This document shows positions 2,650 through 30,915 of a DNA stretch of 32,131 bases, piece after piece (the first letter of the stretch is position 1; the number at the start of each line of letters is the position of its first letter). Position numbers and translations under genes: made by a program. Origin of the DNA: a virus. Location: positions 1 to 32,131 of the IMG/VR virus record IMGVR_UViG_3300036406_001206; one strand, written 5' to 3'. The notes under the pieces are model-generated. The model was not told the origin of the DNA and ran no database searches. It saw only the letters and a program-made list of their open reading frames with translations.

Positions 2650-3083
2650 GCAACATTGCTAATTATTTTTCTGATACAGCTATGGCGATTAAGTCTAGCT
2701 GTATTTCTAATTTAAAGGATTTATTGACTACTTATACTTTACCTAGTGGAGTCATAGTAGATGCTGTAGCTATTAATCCTATTTTAGGTAACGATGTATT
2801 CCCGCCAGAAGGTACTAAAACAGGTGAGGGAATAGAGGTTGTTATTTATTATCCTGAAGCGAGAGTCAACCAAATATTAGCCGGTTATTCCCGTGATTAT
2901 TTATGGCAAATATATCTTAAACAATGGGATTTAAAAAGTGATACGTTAGAGGCATCGGAGTTATTGATTGATGCTTTGCCGTATCAAGTTAAAAATTGTT
3001 TTAGAAATAGGCAAAATAGCTTGTTAAATCAGCCTGAAATATGTAAGATAGAAGTAATTATTGGTATTGCGGGGAGTTGGTAA
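2646..3083 (+). CDS. Putative tail terminator / minor tail protein
   Basis: 145 aa; start overlaps the previous stop (ATGA), indicating translational coupling. An alpha/beta protein: N-terminal helix (IANYFSDTAMAIKSSCI), then YYPEARVNQILAGYSRDYLW, then LEASELLIDALPYQ. This outline and its size agree with tail terminator subunits, which cap the tail tube at the head end and usually lie just before the tape measure in this gene order. No signature motif is visible, so the function comes from gene order. Confidence 0.4.
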   Translation: MSNIANYFSDTAMAIKSSCISNLKDLLTTYTLPSGVIVDAVAINPILGNDVFPPEGTKTGEGIEVVIYYPEARVNQILAGYSRDYLWQIYLKQWDLKSDTLEASELLIDALPYQVKNCFRNRQNSLLNQPEICKIEVIIGIAGSW

Positions 3084-12617: not shown

Positions 12618-13346
12618 ATGATTACCGATAAATATTTTACCGTCCAATCAATAGCCAAAACCGTTAACCCACAACAATCCGCATACTTAGCAATGCACCA
12701 GGATTATTCATCTGAATTAGTGGCTATTAACGAATCAATCCCTAGCGAGGAAAAGTGTGGGGAAATAATTGTCAACCGATTATTAGCCGGCGATAGAGGA
12801 CATTGGGGTCCTCTGGAGCATATTAATATTATTTTAAATTGTGGGTACTTCCCTCACTCAGTCATGCAACAGGCTACCAGACATAGGATAGCTAGTTTTG
12901 ATGTGCAAAGTTTTCGATATACATCAGACCAAGTATTAGAAGTTGCCACCGGCGATAAAGATATTGAATCAGTATTCTACCTGAGACCCGTCGGTGATTA
13001 TTCTGATCGGAGTGGCAAAAAGTATCATTACTCAGAAGAACAAAGAGTAAATGATCTGCTGTGGTGCATGGAATCAGCTAAACGATATTATAAAGATATT
13101 AATGAGTATGGAATGTCTGAGGAACACGCCAGAGGTAAACTACCTTTTGACTACCGTCAACACTTTGTTGTTAGTTTTAATTGCCGTAGTCTCATGCACT
13201 TTTTGGATTTACGATCTAAAAAAGATGCACAATTAGAAATACAAATATTGTGTCAGCTGATGTGGAATCACTTTCAAGAGTGGGTCCCGCAAGTGGCTGA
13301 ATGGTATCAGAAAAATAGATTAGGGAAGGCTAAGTTATCGCCATGA
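12618..13346 (+). CDS. thyX: Flavin-dependent thymidylate synthase
   Basis: 242 aa. Catalyses dUMP to dTMP using methylene-tetrahydrofolate, FAD and NAD(P)H. The ThyX signature is RHRIASFDVQSFR (88-100), a cyanobacterial/cyanophage variant of RHR..S.NE.S.R. GHWGPLEH (61-68) and the C-terminal NCRSLMHFLDLRSKKDAQLE (188-207) hold other flavin/dUMP-binding residues including R199. Length is normal for the family and no key residue is missing. It heads an operon whose next start overlaps its stop (ATGA). With the phage dUTPase, which makes dUMP, it would supply dTTP for replication. Confidence 0.93.
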   Translation: MITDKYFTVQSIAKTVNPQQSAYLAMHQDYSSELVAINESIPSEEKCGEIIVNRLLAGDRGHWGPLEHINIILNCGYFPHSVMQQATRHRIASFDVQSFRYTSDQVLEVATGDKDIESVFYLRPVGDYSDRSGKKYHYSEEQRVNDLLWCMESAKRYYKDINEYGMSEEHARGKLPFDYRQHFVVSFNCRSLMHFLDLRSKKDAQLEIQILCQLMWNHFQEWVPQVAEWYQKNRLGKAKLSP

Positions 13347-14329: not shown

Positions 14330-14597
14330 TCTTACAGATTTGGTATATATATTATAAAGCATTTTCTGTCATCCCTAGGATTCAACACTAGAAAGACTTT
14401 TAGCGATCCGGCGGGTGCGTGAATGAACGCTATTCGCAACGAATACCGACGGCTAGGATGTACCTTTCCCGTCGGCGTTACATTTCTTTACTTTTTGATC
14501 TATTTTAGCTAAATACACTTTTTGTCAGCCATCAAAGCCATACCAGATATAGGACTATGCGATCCGCTATCGTGGCGAATGAAATTAGACACAAGGC
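14330..14597 (+). ncRNA. Conserved non-coding element, copy A (candidate structured RNA or regulatory DNA)
   Basis: No gene lies in 14291-14898. About 270 bp here match, in inverted orientation, 26380-26652. Blocks shared with copy B include ATTATAAAGCA, TGCGTGAATGA, TTCGCAAC, AATACCGACGGCTA, GCGTTACATTTC, TTTTTGTCAG and GGCGAAT; the core is roughly three-quarters identical by eye. A hairpin TGCG(TG)AAT...ATTCGCA at about 14416-14438 is kept in copy B as TGCG(TG)AAT...GTTCGCA, an A-U to G-U change. Here CCGACGG (14446-14452) also pairs with CCGTCGG (14469-14475). Neither copy is coding. Which strand is transcribed is unknown. Confidence 0.55.
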
Positions 14598-18396: not shown

Positions 18397-18438
18397 CTTT
18401 GAAAAAGTATTGACAAATCAAAAGTGTTAGCCTAGTAT
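18397..18438 (+). promoter_or_regulatory. Promoter P1 with operator-like inverted repeat
   Basis: TTGACA (18410-18415), 17 bp, TAGTAT (18433-18438). The -35 is flanked by CTTTGA (18397-18402) and TCAAAAG (18418-18424), an imperfect inverted repeat. The block TATTGACAAATCAAAAG is identical in P2 (22266-22307), and P3 (28315-28357, minus strand) has a perfect 9-bp version of the inverted repeat. It drives the small-gene operon 18476-19544. Confidence 0.8.
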
Positions 18439-18475
18439 AGGAAATGTAGATATTAAATACAAAGGACAAAACAAA

Positions 18476-18619
18476 ATGAAAACCAAACAAGATTTGTTGG
18501 CCGAGATTCAAGAGTTAAGATCGGCTATTGAAGAAAGTACATCCGATGTCGAAATTGAGATGCTTTACTCCACGTTAGAAGATGTAAAAACTGAGTTGCG
18601 TAACACAATCAACTGGTAA
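18476..18619 (+). CDS. 47-aa helical protein
   Basis: The ATG at 18476 directly follows the leader ACAAAGGACAAAACAAA and lies about 35 bp after the start site of promoter P1. Sequence MKTKQDLLAEIQELRSAIEE and onwards is a charged alpha-helical, coiled-coil-like peptide ending LRNTINW. Small size, strong promoter and shared leader argue for a real early gene. Could be a small regulator or inhibitor; function unknown. Confidence 0.65.
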   Translation: MKTKQDLLAEIQELRSAIEESTSDVEIEMLYSTLEDVKTELRNTINW

Positions 18620-18641
18620 AACTGCCGGCCAAATTTATCAC

Positions 18642-18662
18642 CCGGACCATCACCCGGTCCGG
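18642..18662 (+). repeat. Intercistronic hairpin, copy 1
   Basis: CCGGACC and GGTCCGG form a 7-bp GC stem with a 7-nt loop, followed by TATTCAC and no T-run. An almost identical copy occurs at 19011-19031 before the next gene. Likely an mRNA-stabilising or processing hairpin between early genes. Confidence 0.65.
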
Positions 18663-18693
18663 TATTCACTAAACATACAAAGGACAAAAACAA

Positions 18694-19002
18694 ATGAAAA
18701 ACAACATGAAAAGTATTGAACTGGATTCTTTGGCAAAGACAGCCAACCTTTTAAAGGAATACCTAGTGACAAAAGGATTTAAAGTGAACGCAAAAAGGAT
18801 GAAAAGCATCCATGGTCCAGACGATGACATCATAGAAATTGATTTAGGTTTTAAAAGAAACATCCGATTGTTTGCATCAGAAGAACCCGGTAGATTTGAT
18901 TTAGAAGGGGTTGAGTTCCATGAACGGATCAGTAATGGTGTGATCAAAAAAGATGACTGGCGAGATGATTTATCTAAGATAAACATTGATATTTTTAACT
19001 AA
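18694..19002 (+). CDS. Hypothetical small early protein
   Basis: 102 aa with ACAAAGGACAA (18677-18687) upstream. Acidic and basic mixed; SIELDSLAKTANLLKEYLVT (about 6-25) is helical, followed by beta strands (IIEIDLGFKRNIRLF) and VEFHERISNG. No family recognised. Second gene of the P1 operon, flanked by the two matching hairpins. Confidence 0.65.
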   Translation: MKNNMKSIELDSLAKTANLLKEYLVTKGFKVNAKRMKSIHGPDDDIIEIDLGFKRNIRLFASEEPGRFDLEGVEFHERISNGVIKKDDWRDDLSKINIDIFN

Positions 19003-19010
19003 CACCACAC

Positions 19011-19031
19011 CCGGACCCTCACTCGGTCCGG
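19011..19031 (+). repeat. Intercistronic hairpin, copy 2
   Basis: CCGGACC (19011-19017) and GGTCCGG (19025-19031) with loop CTCACTC; the flanks CAC before and TATTCAC after match copy 1 at 18642. Duplicated together with the intercistronic space. Confidence 0.65.
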
Positions 19032-19062
19032 TATTCACCACACCACAAAAGGGGAAAACAAA

Positions 19063-19353
19063 ATGAAAACACTAGAAATCTGCGGAGTCGAATACGGTGC
19101 AACCGTCAATAGATATGGTCATTTTATTCTATTAGAGGAGAGAGAGGATGTCTGGGAATCTAATATTAGCCTAGACAAGTTAGGGTATGTCAAATTGTCT
19201 GACATCCCGGCTTTTGCGTTGAGAGACATTATCGCTAGTCTGTATGTAGAAATGGCGATTACTGGCTGTTTGAGTTTGAATCACTTTCACCCGCCAAAAA
19301 TAATTGCTGAGATAAACCGAGCCTATAAAAAGGGGCAAGTGGTAAGTAAATGA
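19063..19353 (+). CDS. Hypothetical small early protein
   Basis: 96 aa, AAAAGGGGAAAA before the ATG. Beta-rich N-terminus (LEICGVEYGATVNRYGHFIL) followed by a helical part (IIASLYVEMAITGCL) and an acidic-to-basic C-terminus (NRAYKKGQVVSK). No recognised family. Its stop overlaps the start of the ribbon-helix-helix gene (ATGA), so the two are translationally coupled. Confidence 0.65.
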   Translation: MKTLEICGVEYGATVNRYGHFILLEEREDVWESNISLDKLGYVKLSDIPAFALRDIIASLYVEMAITGCLSLNHFHPPKIIAEINRAYKKGQVVSK

Positions 19354-19544
19354 AAAAAAAGATAGAGAACCGTGGGGGACCCCGCCCCAACTCTGGAGCC
19401 AAAAAGAAAGGCTCCGCCGCTAGAGTAAAAGTATCCTTCACCCTAGAGCCGGAGTGTAAAGAGTTTTTAAATCTTTTAGCTTTATCCGAGGGAATATCAA
19501 GGTCTGAGTATCTGAACCAATTAATAAGAGAGTGGATGGATTGA
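19350..19544 (+). CDS. Ribbon-helix-helix DNA-binding protein
   Basis: 64 aa. N-terminal basic arm with GGPRPNSGAKKKGSAARVK, a GGPRPNSG-type phage motif, then a ribbon-helix-helix: strand RVKVSFTLEPECKEFL, helix 1, EGISRSEYLNQLIREW as helix 2. Dimeric RHH proteins bind operators through the strand. Last gene of the P1 operon, so it may act back on P1-type promoters (inference). Confidence 0.7.
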   Translation: MKKKIENRGGPRPNSGAKKKGSAARVKVSFTLEPECKEFLNLLALSEGISRSEYLNQLIREWMD

Positions 19545-19548
19545 TTTT

Positions 19549-19578
19549 AATAACGACTAGGCACCCCTAGTCGTTATT
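19549..19578. terminator. Convergent-gene terminator hairpin
   Basis: A perfect 13-bp stem, AATAACGACTAGG and CCTAGTCGTTATT, with loop CACC, lies between the rightward operon ending at 19544 and the leftward methyltransferase ending at 19582. TGTTT follows on the plus strand. Probably used in both directions. Confidence 0.75.
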
Positions 19579-19581
19579 TGT

Positions 19582-20628
19582 TTACGTCAACCATTGTTCA
19601 ATAACTGCTCTAGCTACTTCATACATCATTTTTGGCGGTACTGACATTCCTATAATGTATTTACCTATTTTCTCGTTTTTTGCTTGGTAATCGTCGGGGA
19701 ATGAGCCTAGTCGTTTCCATTCTCTGAGAGTTAGCTTCTTTGGCTGTGACCAGTGCTTAAACATCTGTTCATTTGCGAGCAAAGAAGGTGACGGATTTTT
19801 AAGACATAATTTATTGTGATTAAAAAGTTGTGGTTTTAGTCCGGCACGGATAGTCGCTTGTTCATACCTCTCACCTTGATAGGTTAACGGCCACCATTTT
19901 AAATCTGTATTAGCGGTAAAAACAGTGTTTTCTTTTTCATCCTCAGTCAAAACCTGTAAATCACTAGTAGCCTCACCCGCACTAATCCACCTATGCTTAG
20001 GATTCAATACCAACTTATCAACAGCAATATCATCACGTATTGCAATAAAAAATACCCGTTCTCTCTTCTGGGGAACACCGCAGTCAGCAGCATTAACAAG
20101 AAATAATTGTGGTCTATAACCAATCTCTTTGTATCGGTCAAATACCATCTTGACATAACCTTTGGCGTTACCTTGAATCATTCCTTTGACGTTTTCTGCA
20201 ATAGATACTTTAGGTCTTAATCGGTCAACCAAATCCAGATAATCAAAAAATAAATCATCTAATACCTGAACAGATTGCCCCTCTCTAAACTTCTTTTTCT
20301 TGCCCCAATCTTTTTCCCTATTCCCTGCCATAGAAAAAGCAGAACACGGAGGGGAACCATCCAATATGTCTAACTCATATAATTCTTGTGGTAAGTCTTT
20401 TTTTAGCAAGTCTTTGATAGGACACAGAAAATAGTATGCAGGATGGAGATTAAGTTTGTAATGATATGCCATTTCTGGATCAATATCATTAGCACCTATC
20501 ATCTGACAACCAGCTAATTTATAGCCCATGGTACTGCCACCACCACAGGCAAAAGTAGAAAACACTTTTATATCTTTTTGGGGAACTGACTTTAAATCAG
20601 CCATAAACCATGCGTGAGGATTAGTCAT
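19582..20628 (-). CDS. DNA (cytosine-5) methyltransferase
   Basis: 348 aa from the ATG complementary to 20626-20628, which overlaps the upstream gene by 8 bp; a longer start at 20679 would lie deep inside that gene. Motif I FACGGGSTMGYKLAG (26-40), motif IV GSPPCSAFS (91-99, catalytic C95), motif VI ENVKGM (145-150), motif VIII QKRERVFFI (187-195), then a target-recognition region and motif X near GMSVPPKM at the C-terminus. All core motifs are intact. No restriction endonuclease is adjacent, so it is probably a solitary phage enzyme protecting DNA from host restriction or altering expression; the target sequence cannot be predicted. Confidence 0.92.
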   Translation of the reverse strand: MTNPHAWFMADLKSVPQKDIKVFSTFACGGGSTMGYKLAGCQMIGANDIDPEMAYHYKLNLHPAYYFLCPIKDLLKKDLPQELYELDILDGSPPCSAFSMAGNREKDWGKKKKFREGQSVQVLDDLFFDYLDLVDRLRPKVSIAENVKGMIQGNAKGYVKMVFDRYKEIGYRPQLFLVNAADCGVPQKRERVFFIAIRDDIAVDKLVLNPKHRWISAGEATSDLQVLTEDEKENTVFTANTDLKWWPLTYQGERYEQATIRAGLKPQLFNHNKLCLKNPSPSLLANEQMFKHWSQPKKLTLREWKRLGSFPDDYQAKNEKIGKYIIGMSVPPKMMYEVARAVIEQWLT

Positions 20629-21250
20629 TATATTCAAATCCACACTTAGGACATTGATGATTAAAACTAAAAGAATCAACGTCTATTTCCTTTGTGACAC
20701 CTTCTTTTTGTTCTTTTGGCTCCCTGTCTTCTGGTTCGGCATCTCTTTCATACTCTGCCTCTGGTACGAAGGTCTCACTATCATTTTCACTCTCAACCAC
20801 CTCAATCCCCACCGTCTGACTCTCCAACTCCATTAATAACTTATCTAATTCCTCCCGCCCATAACCAGTAGCATCAATATCATCCTGAAACCGTGTCAAT
20901 TCTTTAAGCAATTTCTCAATATCATATTCACCCTCAGCGGATTTATTATCTAATAGCCTAGCCTTATCAGCTACATCCGGTGGCACATCTACTATTATCG
21001 CAGGGACTACCGGCCAGCCCTTTTGGATTACAGCCTCTAAACGACCATGACCCTTGATAATAGACATATCCCTTTTATTCGCCACAACAGGCTGATCGAA
21101 CCCGGTCAAATCAATTGATCTTTTTAGTAATTCTATTTGTGATTGTGGATGTTTTTTTGCATTCAATAGGTAAAGTTTTAATTCCTCTACGGGTACTAAC
21201 TTTATCTCAGTAGGTATTTGGTTGATGTCAAAATCTTTTATTTTCTTCAC
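20621..21250 (-). CDS. ParB/Sulfiredoxin-like nuclease-domain protein with C-terminal zinc motif
   Basis: 209 aa. Residues 15-110 match the phage ParB-like N-terminal domain: LVPVEELKLYLLNAKKHP, then GFDQPVVANKRDMSIIKGHG (ParB box with KGHGRLEA), then PAIIVDV and LLDNKSAEGEYD. The C-terminal part is acidic and linker-like, ending HQCPKCGFEYND, half of a zinc site. In many phages this domain is fused to or encoded next to a DNA methyltransferase; here the methyltransferase overlaps its end by 8 bp. Probably helps that enzyme or binds DNA; a partition role is unlikely without ParA. Confidence 0.75.
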   Translation of the reverse strand: MKKIKDFDINQIPTEIKLVPVEELKLYLLNAKKHPQSQIELLKRSIDLTGFDQPVVANKRDMSIIKGHGRLEAVIQKGWPVVPAIIVDVPPDVADKARLLDNKSAEGEYDIEKLLKELTRFQDDIDATGYGREELDKLLMELESQTVGIEVVESENDSETFVPEAEYERDAEPEDREPKEQKEGVTKEIDVDSFSFNHQCPKCGFEYND

Positions 21251-21312
21251 TGTTTCTTGTTATTAAAAACTGTTTTTTATTCTAACAGATTGAATCGCAA
21301 TTACGATATTTA

Positions 21313-21321
21313 TGGTAAAAT
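21313..21321 (+). promoter_or_regulatory. Extended -10 promoter of the KilA-N gene
   Basis: TGGTAAAAT, an extended -10 (TGn plus TAAAAT), preceded by CGATATTTA. The Bro-N gene has the matching CGATATTTTATGGTATAAT at the same distance from its leader. The start site would fall near 21328, which rules out translation from an upstream ATG at 21312. Confidence 0.6.
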
Positions 21322-21335
21322 ATTTATATAAAAAT

Positions 21336-21401
21336 TCCCCTCGCTGGTTGGTACTGGAATACCGGGACCACAGGGGATGTAACCTAAATGGAGAGGTCAC
21401 A
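21336..21401 (+). ncRNA. Structured leader RNA, copy A (riboregulator candidate)
   Basis: Stem I TCCCCT (21336-21341) with AGGGGA (21372-21377); stem II GGTT (21346-21349) with GACC (21366-21369); stem III GGTA (21350-21353) with TACC (21360-21363), a GG bulge at 21364-21365. Then GTAACCT (21379-21385) can pair with AGGTCAC (21394-21400), enclosing the ribosome binding site GGAGAGG. The copy at 30772-30836 keeps every helix; stem III there is GATG/CATC, two compensated base-pair changes. Confidence 0.75.
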
Positions 21402-22175
21402 ATGAGTAATTTATCATATCAAGGAAACAGTATAACCCAAAGAGATGGCGACGGGTATGTCAACGCTACCCAAATGGCAAAAGCTAATGATGCAAGGTTT
21501 GACAACTGGATCGCAACCGAAAATGCTAAGGAATACCTGAAAGCCTTGCAGGAGTCTGATCTCCTGGAAAGTCAGGAAAACAATAAAACCCTTATTGTTG
21601 TAGAGTCCAAAGGTTTTCCTGCTATTAAAACTATGTGGGTTCATCCTCTCGTTGCGATAGCCTTCGCTCAGTGGATTAGTCCAAGGTTTCATGTTTGGTG
21701 TAACCAGCATATTAAGACGTTACTAGAAACAGGTAAAACCACAACAGGCAAGTTTAAGCACAATCTTGAATGGTATGACCGCCTACTTTACTACAAAGCT
21801 AGGACAAAAATAGAAGTTGGTTATTTCTCAATCTTTGAAGAATTAAACAATTCAATCATCAGCGAATTAGAACACTCTGGTTATACCTTGCCACTAGGTT
21901 CTGTCCCTGATATTAGTGTTGGACAATGTTTTTGTAATTACCTCAGAAGTATTGGCTATAACCTAGAGAAAATAACCAAACTTTATACTCATTATTATCC
22001 TGATGGACGGGTAGTAAAAGCCAACGTTTATTCTGATGAAGTATTGGCTATTTTCAGGAAATGGTTGCAACTAACCTACAAAACAACTCAATTCCCTAAG
22101 TATTTAAAAGGTAAAGACCCGTTAGCACTTCCTACTCTTAATCAATTATTAGGGTTGCCGGATGGAGCTATTTAA
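21402..22175 (+). CDS. KilA-N domain protein with shared C-terminal domain
   Basis: 257 aa from the ATG at 21402 behind GAGAGG. KilA-N DNA-binding domain at about 3-110: YQGNSITQRDGDGYVNATQM, then WHPLVAIAFAQWISP-type core (MWVHPLVAIAFAQWISPRFH). KilA-N proteins act as phage regulators or antirepressors. The C-terminal domain (about 122-248, with GYFSIFEEL at 140-148, HYYPDGRVV, LAIFRKWLQLTYK and YLKGKDPLA) is shared with the Bro-N protein at 29995. Same leader, same MSNLS start, different N-terminal domain: a domain-swapped pair. A terminator follows. Confidence 0.85.
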   Translation: MSNLSYQGNSITQRDGDGYVNATQMAKANDARFDNWIATENAKEYLKALQESDLLESQENNKTLIVVESKGFPAIKTMWVHPLVAIAFAQWISPRFHVWCNQHIKTLLETGKTTTGKFKHNLEWYDRLLYYKARTKIEVGYFSIFEELNNSIISELEHSGYTLPLGSVPDISVGQCFCNYLRSIGYNLEKITKLYTHYYPDGRVVKANVYSDEVLAIFRKWLQLTYKTTQFPKYLKGKDPLALPTLNQLLGLPDGAI

Positions 22176-22265: not shown

Positions 22266-22307
22266 CTTTGAAAATGTATTGACAAATCAAAAGATAGTAG
22301 TTATATT
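22266..22307 (+). promoter_or_regulatory. Promoter P2 with operator-like inverted repeat
   Basis: TTGACA (22279-22284), 17 bp, TATATT (22302-22307), flanked by CTTTGA (22266-22271) and TCAAAAG (22287-22293). Nearly identical to P1 over 30 bp. Drives the single gene at 22338. Confidence 0.8.
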
Positions 22308-22337: not shown

Positions 22338-22652
22338 ATGACTACTTCTACTTTTTCCGCTGCTACTTCTAATGTTTCTACTATCGCTCGTCCTGAGTTT
22401 AAATTCTTGATCTCTGTTCAGTCGCCATCCGATGGCACTTGGAAAGAGATTGGTTTTGTTACCAAAGAATCTGGTAAAAGACTCTCTGTTGATAAAACTC
22501 TTGACGGATGGATTCGTCCTGCCACTAAAAATAGAGATAATCTATTGAAGTCTTGTAAATTCCTAATGGAAGACTCCGCTACTTGTTCTGTTGACTGGGT
22601 TCCTACTCGTCCTTGGACGACCTTTCGCACCCACAAAGTTATCATCCATTAA
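22338..22652 (+). CDS. Small, probably highly expressed early protein
   Basis: 104 aa. Strong GAGGAGG ribosome binding site, strong promoter P2 and a strong terminator make this a self-contained monocistronic unit. Codon use differs from its neighbours: mostly T- or C-ending codons (ACT, TCT, GCT, CGT, ATC), as in highly expressed genes. N-terminal S/T-rich tail, then FKFLISVQSPSDGTWKEIGF, a beta-rich fold, and a C-terminal TTFRTHKVII. No family recognised. A host-takeover or nucleoid-coating role would fit the expression signals but is unsupported. Confidence 0.75.
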   Translation: MTTSTFSAATSNVSTIARPEFKFLISVQSPSDGTWKEIGFVTKESGKRLSVDKTLDGWIRPATKNRDNLLKSCKFLMEDSATCSVDWVPTRPWTTFRTHKVIIH

Positions 22653-22673: not shown

Positions 22674-22699
22674 AACCAGGCTTAACCGCCTGGTTTTTT
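22674..22699 (+). terminator. Intrinsic terminator
   Basis: AACCAGGC and GCCTGGTT, a perfect 8-bp stem with loop TTAACC, followed by TTTT. Ends the P2 transcript just before the convergent RuvC-like gene. Confidence 0.9.
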
Positions 22700-25345: not shown

Positions 25346-25843
25346 TTAGAATATTACTTCAGGGTCTAATAATACCTGTTGAGATAAATCTTTTGAATGA
25401 TTAATAAAGTATTGGACGTTATTGGGTAATAACCCTTTTTCGATAGCATTGGTCGTCCATCCGATGTTTCTTTTCATCACGTCAACAGCCCAGCAAACTT
25501 GGGGACCCGTCCCCCAGATTCTTAACTTCTGGGCTATTTTTACTTTTTCCTTTGGAGTCCCTGCCATAAATAGCTCGCCTGCTATTTTACAGGCTTTTTC
25601 TCTTTCGGGAGTTATTACGGGTTGAGACTCTAGCTTTTGGATTTCTTTGTTGACAGCGTTTAAAAGAAATGTAAACACATCAGCATAATATTTAGCGGTT
25701 GTGGCGATCTGAGAACACTCAGGATTTGGTTTAACTACAGGTTCATTATAAGTGATTTCTAGTAGCAGACCAACAACCCTAGTTTTGTTGTTATATTTTT
25801 TTGCTACTTTTAACTGGGCCAATAATACTTTTAAGTTTTTCAT
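25346..25843 (-). CDS. Hypothetical helical protein
   Basis: 165 aa, GGGAGAGGGAAA before the ATG. Alpha-helical throughout: MKNLKVLLAQLKVAKKYNNK, then AKYYADVFTFLLNAVNKEIQ and a central REKACKIAGELFMAG. Three cysteines. No recognisable motif. First gene of the leftward run, with the leader AGCGACTCCGGCT shared with the gene at 28263, and controlled from the operator-bearing region at 25907-26007. Confidence 0.6.
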   Translation of the reverse strand: MKNLKVLLAQLKVAKKYNNKTRVVGLLLEITYNEPVVKPNPECSQIATTAKYYADVFTFLLNAVNKEIQKLESQPVITPEREKACKIAGELFMAGTPKEKVKIAQKLRIWGTGPQVCWAVDVMKRNIGWTTNAIEKGLLPNNVQYFINHSKDLSQQVLLDPEVIF

Positions 25844-25875
25844 TTTATTTCCCTCTCCCGTCAGCCGGAGTCGCT
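25844..25875 (-). promoter_or_regulatory. Shared 5' leader AGCGACTCCGGCT + GGGAGAGGG, copy 1
   Basis: On the minus strand AGCGACTCCGGCT (25863-25875) is followed by GAC and the ribosome binding site GGGAGAGGG. CTCC can pair with the GGAG of the binding site across an 8-nt loop. Copy 2 lies at 28264-28294 before another leftward gene. Either a translational control element or a relic of duplication. Confidence 0.5.
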
Positions 25876-25906
25876 TTTAATTTGTTTCTATGTTTTTCAT
25901 TATTAC

Positions 25907-25925
25907 ACGGTTATCTGTATTTTAA
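25907..25925 (+). promoter_or_regulatory. ACGGTTATCT operator-like site 2
   Basis: ACGGTTATCTGTATTTTAA, differing from site 1 (14764) at one position. Faces site 3 at 25988-26006 across about 62 bp in the divergent space between the genes at 25843 and 26045; in each case the motif has the same orientation relative to the gene it precedes. Confidence 0.6.
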
Positions 25926-25987: not shown

Positions 25988-26007
25988 TTAAAACATAGAT
26001 AACCGTG
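25988..26007 (-). promoter_or_regulatory. ACGGTTATCT operator-like site 3 (inverted)
   Basis: On the minus strand CACGGTTATCTATGTTTTAA. Inverted relative to site 2. On the plus strand it is followed by a TATATATT box (26021-26028), a possible -10 for the gene at 26045. Two inverted sites flanking divergent starts are a usual arrangement for a shared repressor. Confidence 0.6.
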
Positions 26008-26044
26008 CTAACCTGAGAACTATATATATTAAGGATAGAAACAA

Positions 26045-26275
26045 ATGGTAACTAGAAACCCCAAAGGAAGTCCAGCAACCCTAACCTCATTCAAAGCGGA
26101 AGGGCCGTTGATCATACCTGGCGACAGATTATCTAAAAAGATGACTGCGATCCGCCTCCAGCAAAAGGTAGAAGACGCTTTAAACAAAATCCCACCCAAA
26201 GAGAGGCCCGCTTTTCTCAGAAAATGTATTACCGAAGCATTAGTCACAAGTGGACTTCTTGATCTGCCTGACTAA
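26045..26275 (+). CDS. Ribbon-helix-helix-like small protein
   Basis: 76 aa, AAGGAT upstream of the ATG. Disordered N-terminus (NPKGSPATLTSFKAEGP), then SKKMTAIRLQQKVEDALNKI (30-49) and PPKERPAFLRKCITEALVTS, a strand-helix-helix plan like small RHH repressors of cyanobacteria. The two operator-like sites in its own upstream region make it a candidate for the protein that binds them (inference). A terminator follows at 26318. Confidence 0.6.
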   Translation: MVTRNPKGSPATLTSFKAEGPLIIPGDRLSKKMTAIRLQQKVEDALNKIPPKERPAFLRKCITEALVTSGLLDLPD

Positions 26276-26379: not shown

Positions 26380-26652
26380 TCAATTTTTATTCGCCTTTGC
26401 GGTGATCTGGTATAATCTATACTAGGTGCGGTTTGCACGCCTGACAAAAAATGTATTTTGCTAAGTCAACTTAAAATGTAACGAAATGTAACGCTAACGG
26501 AAAAGGTTGATCGTAGCCGTCGGTATTTGTTGCGAACGCATATCATTCACGCAGGTAGCGAATCGCTGAGAGTCTATCCTAGTATTAATTACAGAGATGA
26601 CAGAATTTGCTTTATAATATAATAAGAACATCTGTAATGAATAAATAATCAT
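26380..26652 (-). ncRNA. Conserved non-coding element, copy B (inverted relative to copy A)
   Basis: The minus strand matches 14330-14597 over nearly its whole length, while flanking DNA does not. Conserved blocks: TTATAAAGCA, AGCGAT, TGCGTGAATGA, TTCGCAAC, AATACCGACGGCTA, GCGTTACATTTC, TTTTTGTCAG and GGCGAAT. The plus strand of the same element ends in GATGACAGAATTTGCTTTAT and leads into the dUTPase gene, so it could instead be a 240-nt 5' leader transcribed from the extended -10 at 26408. No open frame of note on either strand. Confidence 0.55.
26408..26416 (+). promoter_or_regulatory. Extended -10 promoter upstream of copy B and dUTPase
   Basis: TGGTATAAT, a perfect extended -10. Transcription from about 26423 would run through the whole of copy B and then dUTPase. 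A further TATAAT at 26613-26618, nearer the gene, lies inside the element and is conserved in copy A. Confidence 0.55.
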
Positions 26653-27890: not shown

Positions 27891-27917
27891 TAAAAAAACC
27901 GCCCGGTTAAAGGCGGT
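27891..27917 (-). terminator. Intrinsic terminator of the gene at 27937
   Basis: On the minus strand ACCGCC and GGCGGT with a TTTAACCG loop, followed by TTTTTTT. Ends the P3 transcript before the Bro-like gene's promoter. Confidence 0.85.
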
Positions 27918-27936: not shown

Positions 27937-28263
27937 TTAAAACTCTACAGCGGGGTCAAGATAAACGCCATTAAAAAACTTATCTTGATTGAAAGGCGTT
28001 TCATTCGGGATGTCTCTAACCTGCCTAGGGGCTTTTGTATCCTTAGCACCCAAACTAGATGCCATCGAATATTTGCCGTCGGGGTAAACCATCTCATATT
28101 CATCTCTGTAACTAAGCTCAATCCTTCTTGTGATTAATTCATTTGTCGCCAAACATTTAATGGTGACGGTTTTGGCGGTCCGTTTAATAACGGAATAAGC
28201 AAATACATGATCACTCACTATGGATAAAGAATAGTAAACAGTACCAACCTCAAACTTAACCAT
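27937..28263 (-). CDS. Conserved-type small phage protein
   Basis: 108 aa, GGGAGAGGAAAA before the ATG. Beta-rich: FEVGTVYYSLSIVSDHVFAY, then VIKRTAKTVTIKCL (27-40) and RRIELSYRDEYE, ending GKYSMASSLGAKD. A pattern of IG..Y....I.DH....V..RT.KTVT.K is seen in hypothetical proteins of many phages. Driven by promoter P3. Function unknown, probably early. Confidence 0.65.
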   Translation of the reverse strand: MVKFEVGTVYYSLSIVSDHVFAYSVIKRTAKTVTIKCLATNELITRRIELSYRDEYEMVYPDGKYSMASSLGAKDTKAPRQVRDIPNETPFNQDKFFNGVYLDPAVEF

Positions 28264-28294
28264 CTTTTTTCCTCTCCCTTAAGCCGGAGTCGCT
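28264..28294 (-). promoter_or_regulatory. Shared 5' leader AGCGACTCCGGCT + GGGAGAGG, copy 2
   Basis: Minus strand AGCGACTCCGGCT (28282-28294), then TAA, then the ribosome binding site GGGAGAGG. Matches 25844-25875 except at a few positions, while sequences further upstream differ. Confidence 0.5.
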
Positions 28295-28314: not shown

Positions 28315-28357
28315 AATATAAATAAAATCTTTTGAATTGTCAATACTTATTCAAAAG
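28315..28357 (-). promoter_or_regulatory. Promoter P3 with perfect operator-like inverted repeat
   Basis: On the minus strand TTGACA (28338-28343), 17 bp, TATATT (28315-28320). CTTTTGAAT and ATTCAAAAG (28349-28357 and 28329-28337) are perfect 9-bp inverted arms around AAGTATTGACA, so any bound dimer would cover the -35. Same spacing as P1 and P2. Drives the gene at 28263. Confidence 0.8.
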
Positions 28358-28477
28358 ATTTTTATAAAACCACAAAAACAATATATAACAACCGGCTGGA
28401 CCAGATACCGGCCCGGCTCGTAGCGTGTTACTATTAGTCCAACTCATGATACAATATTAAAAACAAAGGACAATATT

Positions 28478-29994: not shown

Positions 29995-30771
29995 TTAGTT
30001 GAGTAATTTCAAATCAAATAAATTACCTGATAGTTGCACCTGTAATAGGTCGCTTAATATCCCTATTGCTCTGGGGTCTTTTTTCTTTAGATAGGTGTAG
30101 AGATGATTGATCTTATAGGTAAACTCTAGCCATTTCCTAAACTCAGCCAACAAACAATCTTGATAAATAAAAGCATCTCGAACGCCTCGCTGATCGGGGT
30201 AATGATGTTTATATTTCATCCTGAGTTTTTCGACGTGAGGGTATTTACTTTCAACATAATCAGACCATCTTTTACCAGCAGAAATGTCTATCCCTGAATT
30301 ATCTGGCAGGACATAACCTGCTGATTCAAAATCAGATATTAAAGTATGACTTAATTCCCCAAAAATGGAGAAATAACCGGGCGGGATTCTTGACCGTTCT
30401 TTGAATAATTGGTATCTATCAAACCAGATTATGTTTTTTCGACCGCCTGAGTTGTATTGTCCAGTTTTACGGATAGCGGGTAATACTTCTTCAAATACCC
30501 ATCGCTGAAAATCTTTAGCTATTGATTTTCGGCTAGTGAATATCAAAGCATAAAGTCCAGCTTCTGTAACTGTTACCATCTTTTGGTTTCCACCAAGGGT
30601 ATAGACACTAGCTACACCCTTTTGATAGTCGTCTAATCGTTTAATTGCGTCGCTTGCGTTTTGGATACCTAGAATATTACAAACATCTTGAGCCACCCAC
30701 TCAGGCTTATCAGGTGTCCCTACGAATCGCACATCTTGACCATCAAACCGGAATACTGATAAATTACTCAT
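29995..30771 (-). CDS. Bro-N domain protein with shared C-terminal domain
   Basis: 258 aa from the ATG complementary to 30769-30771, behind GAGAGG; MSNLS matches the start of the KilA-N gene at 21402. Bro-N domain about 5-105: FDGQDVRFVGTPDKPEWVAQ, DVCNILGIQNASDAIKRLDD, VTEAGLYALIFTSRKSIAKD, FQRWVFEEVLPAIRKTG, the usual phage antirepressor domain. C-terminal domain (about 114-240: GYFSIFGEL at 132-140, HHYPDQRGVRDAF, LLAEFRKWLEFTYK, YLKKKDPRA) is shared with the KilA-N protein. Same leader RNA. Confidence 0.88.
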   Translation of the reverse strand: MSNLSVFRFDGQDVRFVGTPDKPEWVAQDVCNILGIQNASDAIKRLDDYQKGVASVYTLGGNQKMVTVTEAGLYALIFTSRKSIAKDFQRWVFEEVLPAIRKTGQYNSGGRKNIIWFDRYQLFKERSRIPPGYFSIFGELSHTLISDFESAGYVLPDNSGIDISAGKRWSDYVESKYPHVEKLRMKYKHHYPDQRGVRDAFIYQDCLLAEFRKWLEFTYKINHLYTYLKKKDPRAIGILSDLLQVQLSGNLFDLKLLN

Positions 30772-30836
30772 GTGACCTCTCACTTAGGTTACTTCCCCTG
30801 CGGTCCCGATGTTGATAGCATCAACCGGCGAGGGGA
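30772..30836 (-). ncRNA. Structured leader RNA, copy B (riboregulator candidate)
   Basis: Minus strand: TCCCCT (30836-30831), GGTT (30826-30823), GATG (30822-30819), loop, CATC (30811-30808), bulged GG (30807-30806), GACC (30805-30802), AGGGGA (30799-30794), then GTAACCT and AGGTCAC around the ribosome binding site. Copy A at 21336 has the same helices and the same GG bulge. Spacer letters in the loops and between stems vary, stems are kept. Confidence 0.75.
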
Positions 30837-30849
30837 TTTTTACTTCTTA

Positions 30850-30858
30850 ATTATACCA
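30850..30858 (-). promoter_or_regulatory. Extended -10 promoter of the Bro-N gene
   Basis: Minus strand TGGTATAAT, an extended -10, in the same position relative to the leader as TGGTAAAAT at 21313-21321; both are preceded by CGATATTT. Confidence 0.6.
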
Positions 30859-30915
30859 TAAAATATCGCTCTGGCGGTTTGTTTTATAGGTTCCTATGAA
30901 TCTATAAAAGTATTT

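Follow-up and report, generated by a model that had tools for sequence, protein, structure and literature searches.

The window, i.e., the whole 32,131-nt stretch of DNA analysed here, corresponds to the IMG/VR virus record IMGVR_UViG_3300036406_001206 and is a fragment of a larger genome. Phage isolates offer no near relative, no DNA match to the 11.6–32.1 kb part of the window was found among phage records, and an RNA family search detected no RNA family in it. The window terminase is closest to the terminases of a Cylindrospermopsis phage (37% identity) and a Nodularia phage (34%), hence the host is probably a filamentous cyanobacterium. Two close relatives, one of 97 kb (G001, also designated G1) and one of 38.8 kb (G002), cover most of the window at approximately 86–98% DNA identity. 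Three transcription units were delineated in the window, each headed by an operator-promoter, named P1, P2, and P3 (Table 1).

Table 1. Coordinates of the operator-promoters, genes, and hairpins of the P1, P2, and P3 units in the window
Feature	Position	Strand	Details
P1 operator-promoter	18397-18438	+	arms TTTGA 18398-18402 and TCAAA 18418-18422; -35 TTGACA 18410-18415; -10 TAGTAT 18433-18438
P1 cargo, three small uncharacterised ORFs	18476-18619, 18694-19002, 19063-19353 (span 18476-19353)	+	
RHH gene, last of the P1 unit	19350-19544	+	64 aa
Perfect hairpin at the end of the P1 unit, AATAACGACTAGG-CA..	19549-19578		read directly; also serves the converging gene 19582-20679
P2 operator-promoter	22266-22307	+	arms 22267-22271 and 22287-22291; -35 22279-22284; -10 TATATT 22302-22307
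P2 cargo, single uncharacterised gene of the unit	22338-22652	+	104 aa
Terminator-like hairpin, P2 unit	22674-22695	+	
P3 operator-promoter	28315-28362	-	14-bp arms 28362-28349 and 28337-28324; -35 TTGACA 28343-28338; -10 TATATT 28320-28315
P3 cargo, uncharacterised 'RTAKT' family, sole gene of the unit	27937-28263	-	108 aa
Terminator-like hairpin, P3 unit	27898-27917	-	

An earlier note on this DNA had described three near-identical TTGACA promoters with a dyad across the -35 box, 17-bp spacers, and good -10 boxes, and this description was confirmed, 0.1–0.2 such sites being expected in shuffled sequences. The motif GTATTGACAANTCAAAAG occurs in three copies in the window with 0 mismatches (shuffle mean of 0.14 at up to 3 mismatches) and TTTGA-N15-TCAAA in three exact copies (shuffle mean of 0.20). 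In a 20-position site model, the three window sites score 19–20/20, compared with 0.0 sites at a score of at least 17 in Markov-simulated sequence. Of the four TTGACA-N16-18-TANNNT matches that the window contains, three are P1, P2, and P3. In the sigma-70-type scoring, P3 and P2 (11/12 each) are the top two in the 12.1–32.1 kb region and P1 obtains 10/12, so all three have the host sigma-70-type layout (TTGACA, 16–18 bp, TATAAT-like) at 10–11 of 12 consensus positions.

The dyad arms flank the -35 hexamer with their centres 20 bp apart, which would therefore place both arms roughly on one face of the helix. The fullest form of the dyad is TTTTGA-N15-TCAAAA and its core TTTGA-N15-TCAAA. The arms are perfect in P3, as claimed previously, where they reach 14 bp (AAAATCTTTTGAAT / ATTCAAAAGATTTT); in P1 and P2, the perfect arms are 5 bp long. 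The latter two are not simply decayed, as had been proposed, since the core is intact in all three. The earlier choice between promoters driven by the host polymerase and sites shut off by a repressor also needs rewording: the two are not alternatives, and the sites look like a host promoter and a repressor operator together. The postulated small regulon is supported: its units consist of uncharacterised genes, and all are preceded by a host-type promoter whose -35 box is spanned by an operator-like dyad. The leader ATACAAAGGACAAAACAAAATGAAAA recurs before the P1-unit genes (18457-18486, 18675-18704, and 19044-19073), and another leader, AGCGACTCCGGCTTAAGGGAGAGG (25848-25875 and 28267-28294), precedes the P3 gene and the gene 25346-25843.

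P1 and P3 are kept in both close relatives. Between the window and G001, their arms, -35 boxes, and -10 boxes are identical except for two bases, of which one adjoins the core of the right arm and the other is central in P1, and the spacer 3' of the arm varies. A lack of arm conservation in related phages had been named beforehand as an observation that would overturn the proposal; G001 and G002 both keep the arms, so the proposal withstood this check. G001 also carries a third operator site at 12680 (-), with a score of 17/20. Both relatives retain P1, P3, the RHH gene, and the P3 gene, have different P1 cargo, and lack the P2 unit. As P2 is missing while the other elements stay, the P2 unit looks like an inserted promoter–gene–terminator cassette.

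The protein encoded by the last gene of the P1 unit (further referred to as the 19350 protein) starts with a GGxRPNSG basic arm followed by the RHH. Its match to PF01402 amounts to 20.6 bits against a cut-off of 20.5. The structure was modelled as a single chain, with low confidence for the N-terminal 20 residues, and contains helices 34–47 and 51–63 with pLDDT above 90. The predicted fold is closest to the Arc repressor (1myl, TM by target of 0.91); the ribbon strand is unassigned in this monomer model because it pairs only in the dimer. The 19350 protein hence has the features of the RHH domain of the MetJ/Arc/CopG transcription factors. It ends after the RHH, with no NikR-type C-terminal nickel-binding tetramerisation domain, and no protein match to it was found among known phage isolates. 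Three RHH proteins of the window had been put forward as candidate partners of the site. Only the 19350 protein belongs to the site-linked family; the profile of this family matches neither of the RHH-like proteins encoded at 26045 and 29650, and both were rejected. The P1 dyad overlaps the promoter of the unit that ends in the RHH gene, as in CopG-like autorepressors, and the same dyad–promoter–RHH arrangement is present in G1, G11, G12, G14, G15, G021, and one Bacteroidota contig. A type II toxin–antitoxin module with an RHH antitoxin was considered and rejected, as the RHH neighbours are not common to G1 and G11, G12, G15, or the Bacteroidota contig. The neighbour genes differ even between the window and G1.

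Other elements were searched in two directions, with the DNA pattern (dyad with TTGACA) and, separately, with the RHH protein alignment. Besides the relatives, DNA scans revealed two sites in G11, sites in G12/G13 (two of them in G12), and one in G14; a looser pattern added G15. In G11, G12/G14, G15, G021, and the Bacteroidota contig, the site lies 280–1200 bp upstream of an RHH gene of the 19350 family; in G11, G12/G13, G14, and G15, this gene is on the same strand as the site, at a distance of about 270–1050 bp. Sites found by the DNA pattern only (in L055, L054/L056, L086, and L067) have this RHH 270–1050 bp downstream. Conversely, the RHH alignment search of IMG/VR yielded 14 loci, the closest six of which all have the site upstream; one of these six (L094, i.e., G15) was found first by protein, before DNA. 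When all ORFs of the 97-kb relative were compared with those of these elements (BLASTP, 1e-4), the RHH was its only match in G12, in G15, and in the Bacteroidota contig. The comparison with G11 gave matches beyond the RHH, among them KilA-N-type proteins. Under random placement, the probability that a site precedes the RHH at so short a distance is 0.007 for G1, 0.03 for G11, 0.012 for G12, and 0.005 for G15. The product of the four values, 1e-8, is an overstatement, since some of these genomes had already served to form the hypothesis; the independent cases that remain after discounting it are still strong.

A second protein search led to G021, a weak match in the first one, whose RHH is 30% identical to that of the window. 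Its dyad, ATCTTGA-N15-TCAAGAT, has both arms altered together, with an unchanged 15-bp gap around TTGACA and the -10 box 17 bp on. A second, identical dyad lies after the RHH ORF, in front of the next gene, so each of the two copies heads a unit. A scan of bacterial genomes with the strict DNA pattern gave 25 matches, mostly in AT-rich Clostridia and Bacteroidota. Only one of them, L067 from a Bacteroidota bin, is followed by an RHH gene of the 19350 family, approximately 600 bp downstream; no such RHH was found within 3 kb of the others. The Bacteroidota contig carries, instead of TATAAT, the sequence TATCTTTG 19 bp after TTG, which is similar to the Bacteroidetes promoter. The unusual point is a conserved site–regulator pair across phages with almost no other detectable common protein and, in one of them, with compensated arms. 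Two of the site-bearing elements encode reverse-transcriptase-like ORFs, L056 (1579-2565) and L175 (1559-2800, minus strand); the ORF in L056 adjoins a possible variable target gene, which may be compared with diversity-generating retroelements.

In G12 and G14, a homologue of the P3 cargo is the first gene behind the site. The P3 cargo itself was ruled out as the carrier of the site: 14 of its relatives outside the G001/G002 clade, from the same collection, have other promoters, no site, and no nearby RHH of the 19350 family; the site follows the RHH and not the cargo. 'RTAKT' small proteins are common across IMG/VR; those elsewhere are preceded by strong promoters of their own that carry different dyads (L204 and L209, upstream of position 3001), such as TTGACGGGGCCGTCA in L204. 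Beyond a distance of about 40%, RHH relatives are mostly without the site, those in Cyanobacteriota genomes (L137–L152) have no such site nearby, and L099 bears a shifted version of it. Since the search patterns included TTGACA, part of its conservation across phages reflects this selection, and a role as a third half-site is inseparable from the -35 role. In the Cylindrospermopsis phage Cr-LKS4, whose terminase is 37% identical, no RHH of the 19350 family was found, and the best sites score 17/20 and lack the TTGA arm. A variant group (L004/L006/L017/L024) with GTCAAAAG repeats around TTGACA was set aside; in two genomes of the group, no RHH of the 19350 family was detected. The GTCAAAAG-N-TATTGACAAGTCAAAAG sites with the -10 box 17 bp on are located at 6684-6710 in L004, 7764 (-) in L006, 3197 in L017, and 3997 in L024, and G009 has three copies. 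This group appears to form a regulon of its own, with a half-site resembling that of P1–P3.

We propose, with a probability of about 0.74, that the 19350 RHH protein covers the -35 box of all three promoters, acting as an autorepressor at P1 and extending its control to P2 and P3. Upon phage entry, P1–P3 would be free and strong, and host RNA polymerase would produce a burst of transcription. The RHH protein made from the P1 unit would then accumulate and bind the dyad across the -35 box, excluding the host polymerase and closing the P1 unit along with the single-gene P2 and P3 units. Two RHH dimers may occupy each dyad, with or without contact between them, since the 19350 protein does not have the second domain of NikR. 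RHH autorepressors usually have their operator at the -35 box of the operon that encodes them. From the sites, promoters, units, and terminators observed, the arms conserved in relatives, the co-occurrence with the RHH family, and the predicted fold, we infer RHH binding, repression rather than activation, and early timing.

It is unlikely that the dyad serves another phage regulator, e.g., an HTH repressor encoded elsewhere in the genome, with the RHH as a frequent passenger. The window covers only part of a larger genome, and the association of site and RHH is not exclusive: in L085 (a 6.7-kb fragment) and L161 (a 63.7-kb contig), a comparable site is accompanied by a -10 box and by no RHH of the 19350 family. 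However, at 1e-4 G1 has no further family in common with G12, with G15, or with the Bacteroidota contig, therefore a shared unseen regulator would have to escape BLASTP in each pair, and the arm change in G021 accompanies a divergent RHH. An operator of a host regulator exploited by the phage would fit the host-type promoters, but it is barely conceivable given that the motif occurs at background level in 386 Cyanobacteriota genomes (two one-mismatch matches versus five for the reversed control pattern), which rules out a host regulon, and that elements of other hosts carry the same site.

The sequence evidence is compatible with either sign of regulation, and certain RHH proteins can activate as well as repress promoters, so the RHH might activate the three units later in infection, or do both at different times. 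Such a role is very improbable, as near-consensus promoters need no activator and arms straddling the -35 box are in a polymerase-blocking position. We consider it equally far-fetched that the sites are merely duplicated strong promoters with a dyad copied along and serving no protein partner. A single ancestral copy could have given rise to P1, P2, and P3, and all resemble strong promoters, but both arms persist while leaders and spacers vary, and unrelated elements carry the dyad as well, as does G021, where the arms are compensated.

Among known systems, the P1–P3/RHH pair is best read as working like CopG or Arc, with NikR-like operator spacing. Arc is an RHH autorepressor in a phage. It resembles the 19350 protein in being phage-encoded (P22), of about the same size, and the best structural match of the model, but it has another operator, lacks the GGxRPNSG basic arm, and no sequence match to it was reported. 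CopG of plasmid pLS1/pMV158 is a small RHH repressor of its own operon promoter with a short symmetric operator element (PMC5717011 and a 1990 paper cited there); the same autorepression is proposed for the 19350 protein. In contrast, the CopG operator is a 13-bp element that controls plasmid replication, and the sequence match to CopG is weak (E of 0.07). The E. coli NikR operator, GTATGA-N16-TCATAC, consists of 6-bp inverted half-sites two helical turns apart (PMC7055735), a spacing similar to that of TTTTGA-N15-TCAAAA in the window, but NikR has a second domain that binds nickel and joins two dimers, whereas the 64-aa 19350 protein does not. MobC of plasmid RA3 is an RHH protein that represses the operon encoding it by binding an imperfect dyad within the promoter, the imperfect dyad being bound best (PMC4175270); it differs in its size (176 aa), its role as a conjugation auxiliary protein, and its GC-rich dyad between the -35 and -10 boxes. 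TrcR of the filamentous cyanobacterium Anabaena sp. PCC 7120 is an RHH autorepressor that also controls other units (PMC10272220), but it is chromosomal and its motif ATACTACACTTGTATTAC lies at the -10 rather than the -35 box. RHH autorepressors are thus already known in phages (Arc) and cyanobacteria (TrcR). No description of the site or of the site–RHH pair was found in the literature covered, which was thin for subscription journals.

A group of phages that are uncharacterised and probably infect cyanobacteria can now be assigned a probable operator and regulator, and the site predicts which uncharacterised genes switch together. Co-occurrence in otherwise unrelated phages suggests that the repressor–operator pair spreads as a unit, allowing accessory genes to be attached to a switch already in place; the P2 unit seems to be such a case. 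A bolder and rather doubtful extension is that the site and the RHH form a mobile regulatory module acquired by unrelated phages of different bacterial phyla, with arms that change together with their RHH, as in G021, and a promoter core exchanged to match the host polymerase, as in the Bacteroidota contig with its Bacteroidetes-like TATCTTTG. If so, new cargo genes would come under one shared switch.

Other repeats were noted in the window. A dispersed inverted repeat of approximately 200 nt (14332-14552 and 26417-26637, 72–79% alike) has further copies in G001, one of which directly adjoins the third operator site of that genome. A repeat of approximately 115 nt (21304-21416 and 30757-30868) extends over the 5' ends of two KilA-N/Bro-like genes, with more copies in G001. 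Finally, an inverted repeat with the core CACGGTTATC / GATAACCGTG (25889-25925 and 25988-26024), located in the divergent gap before the small gene 26045, could be the operator of that gene.
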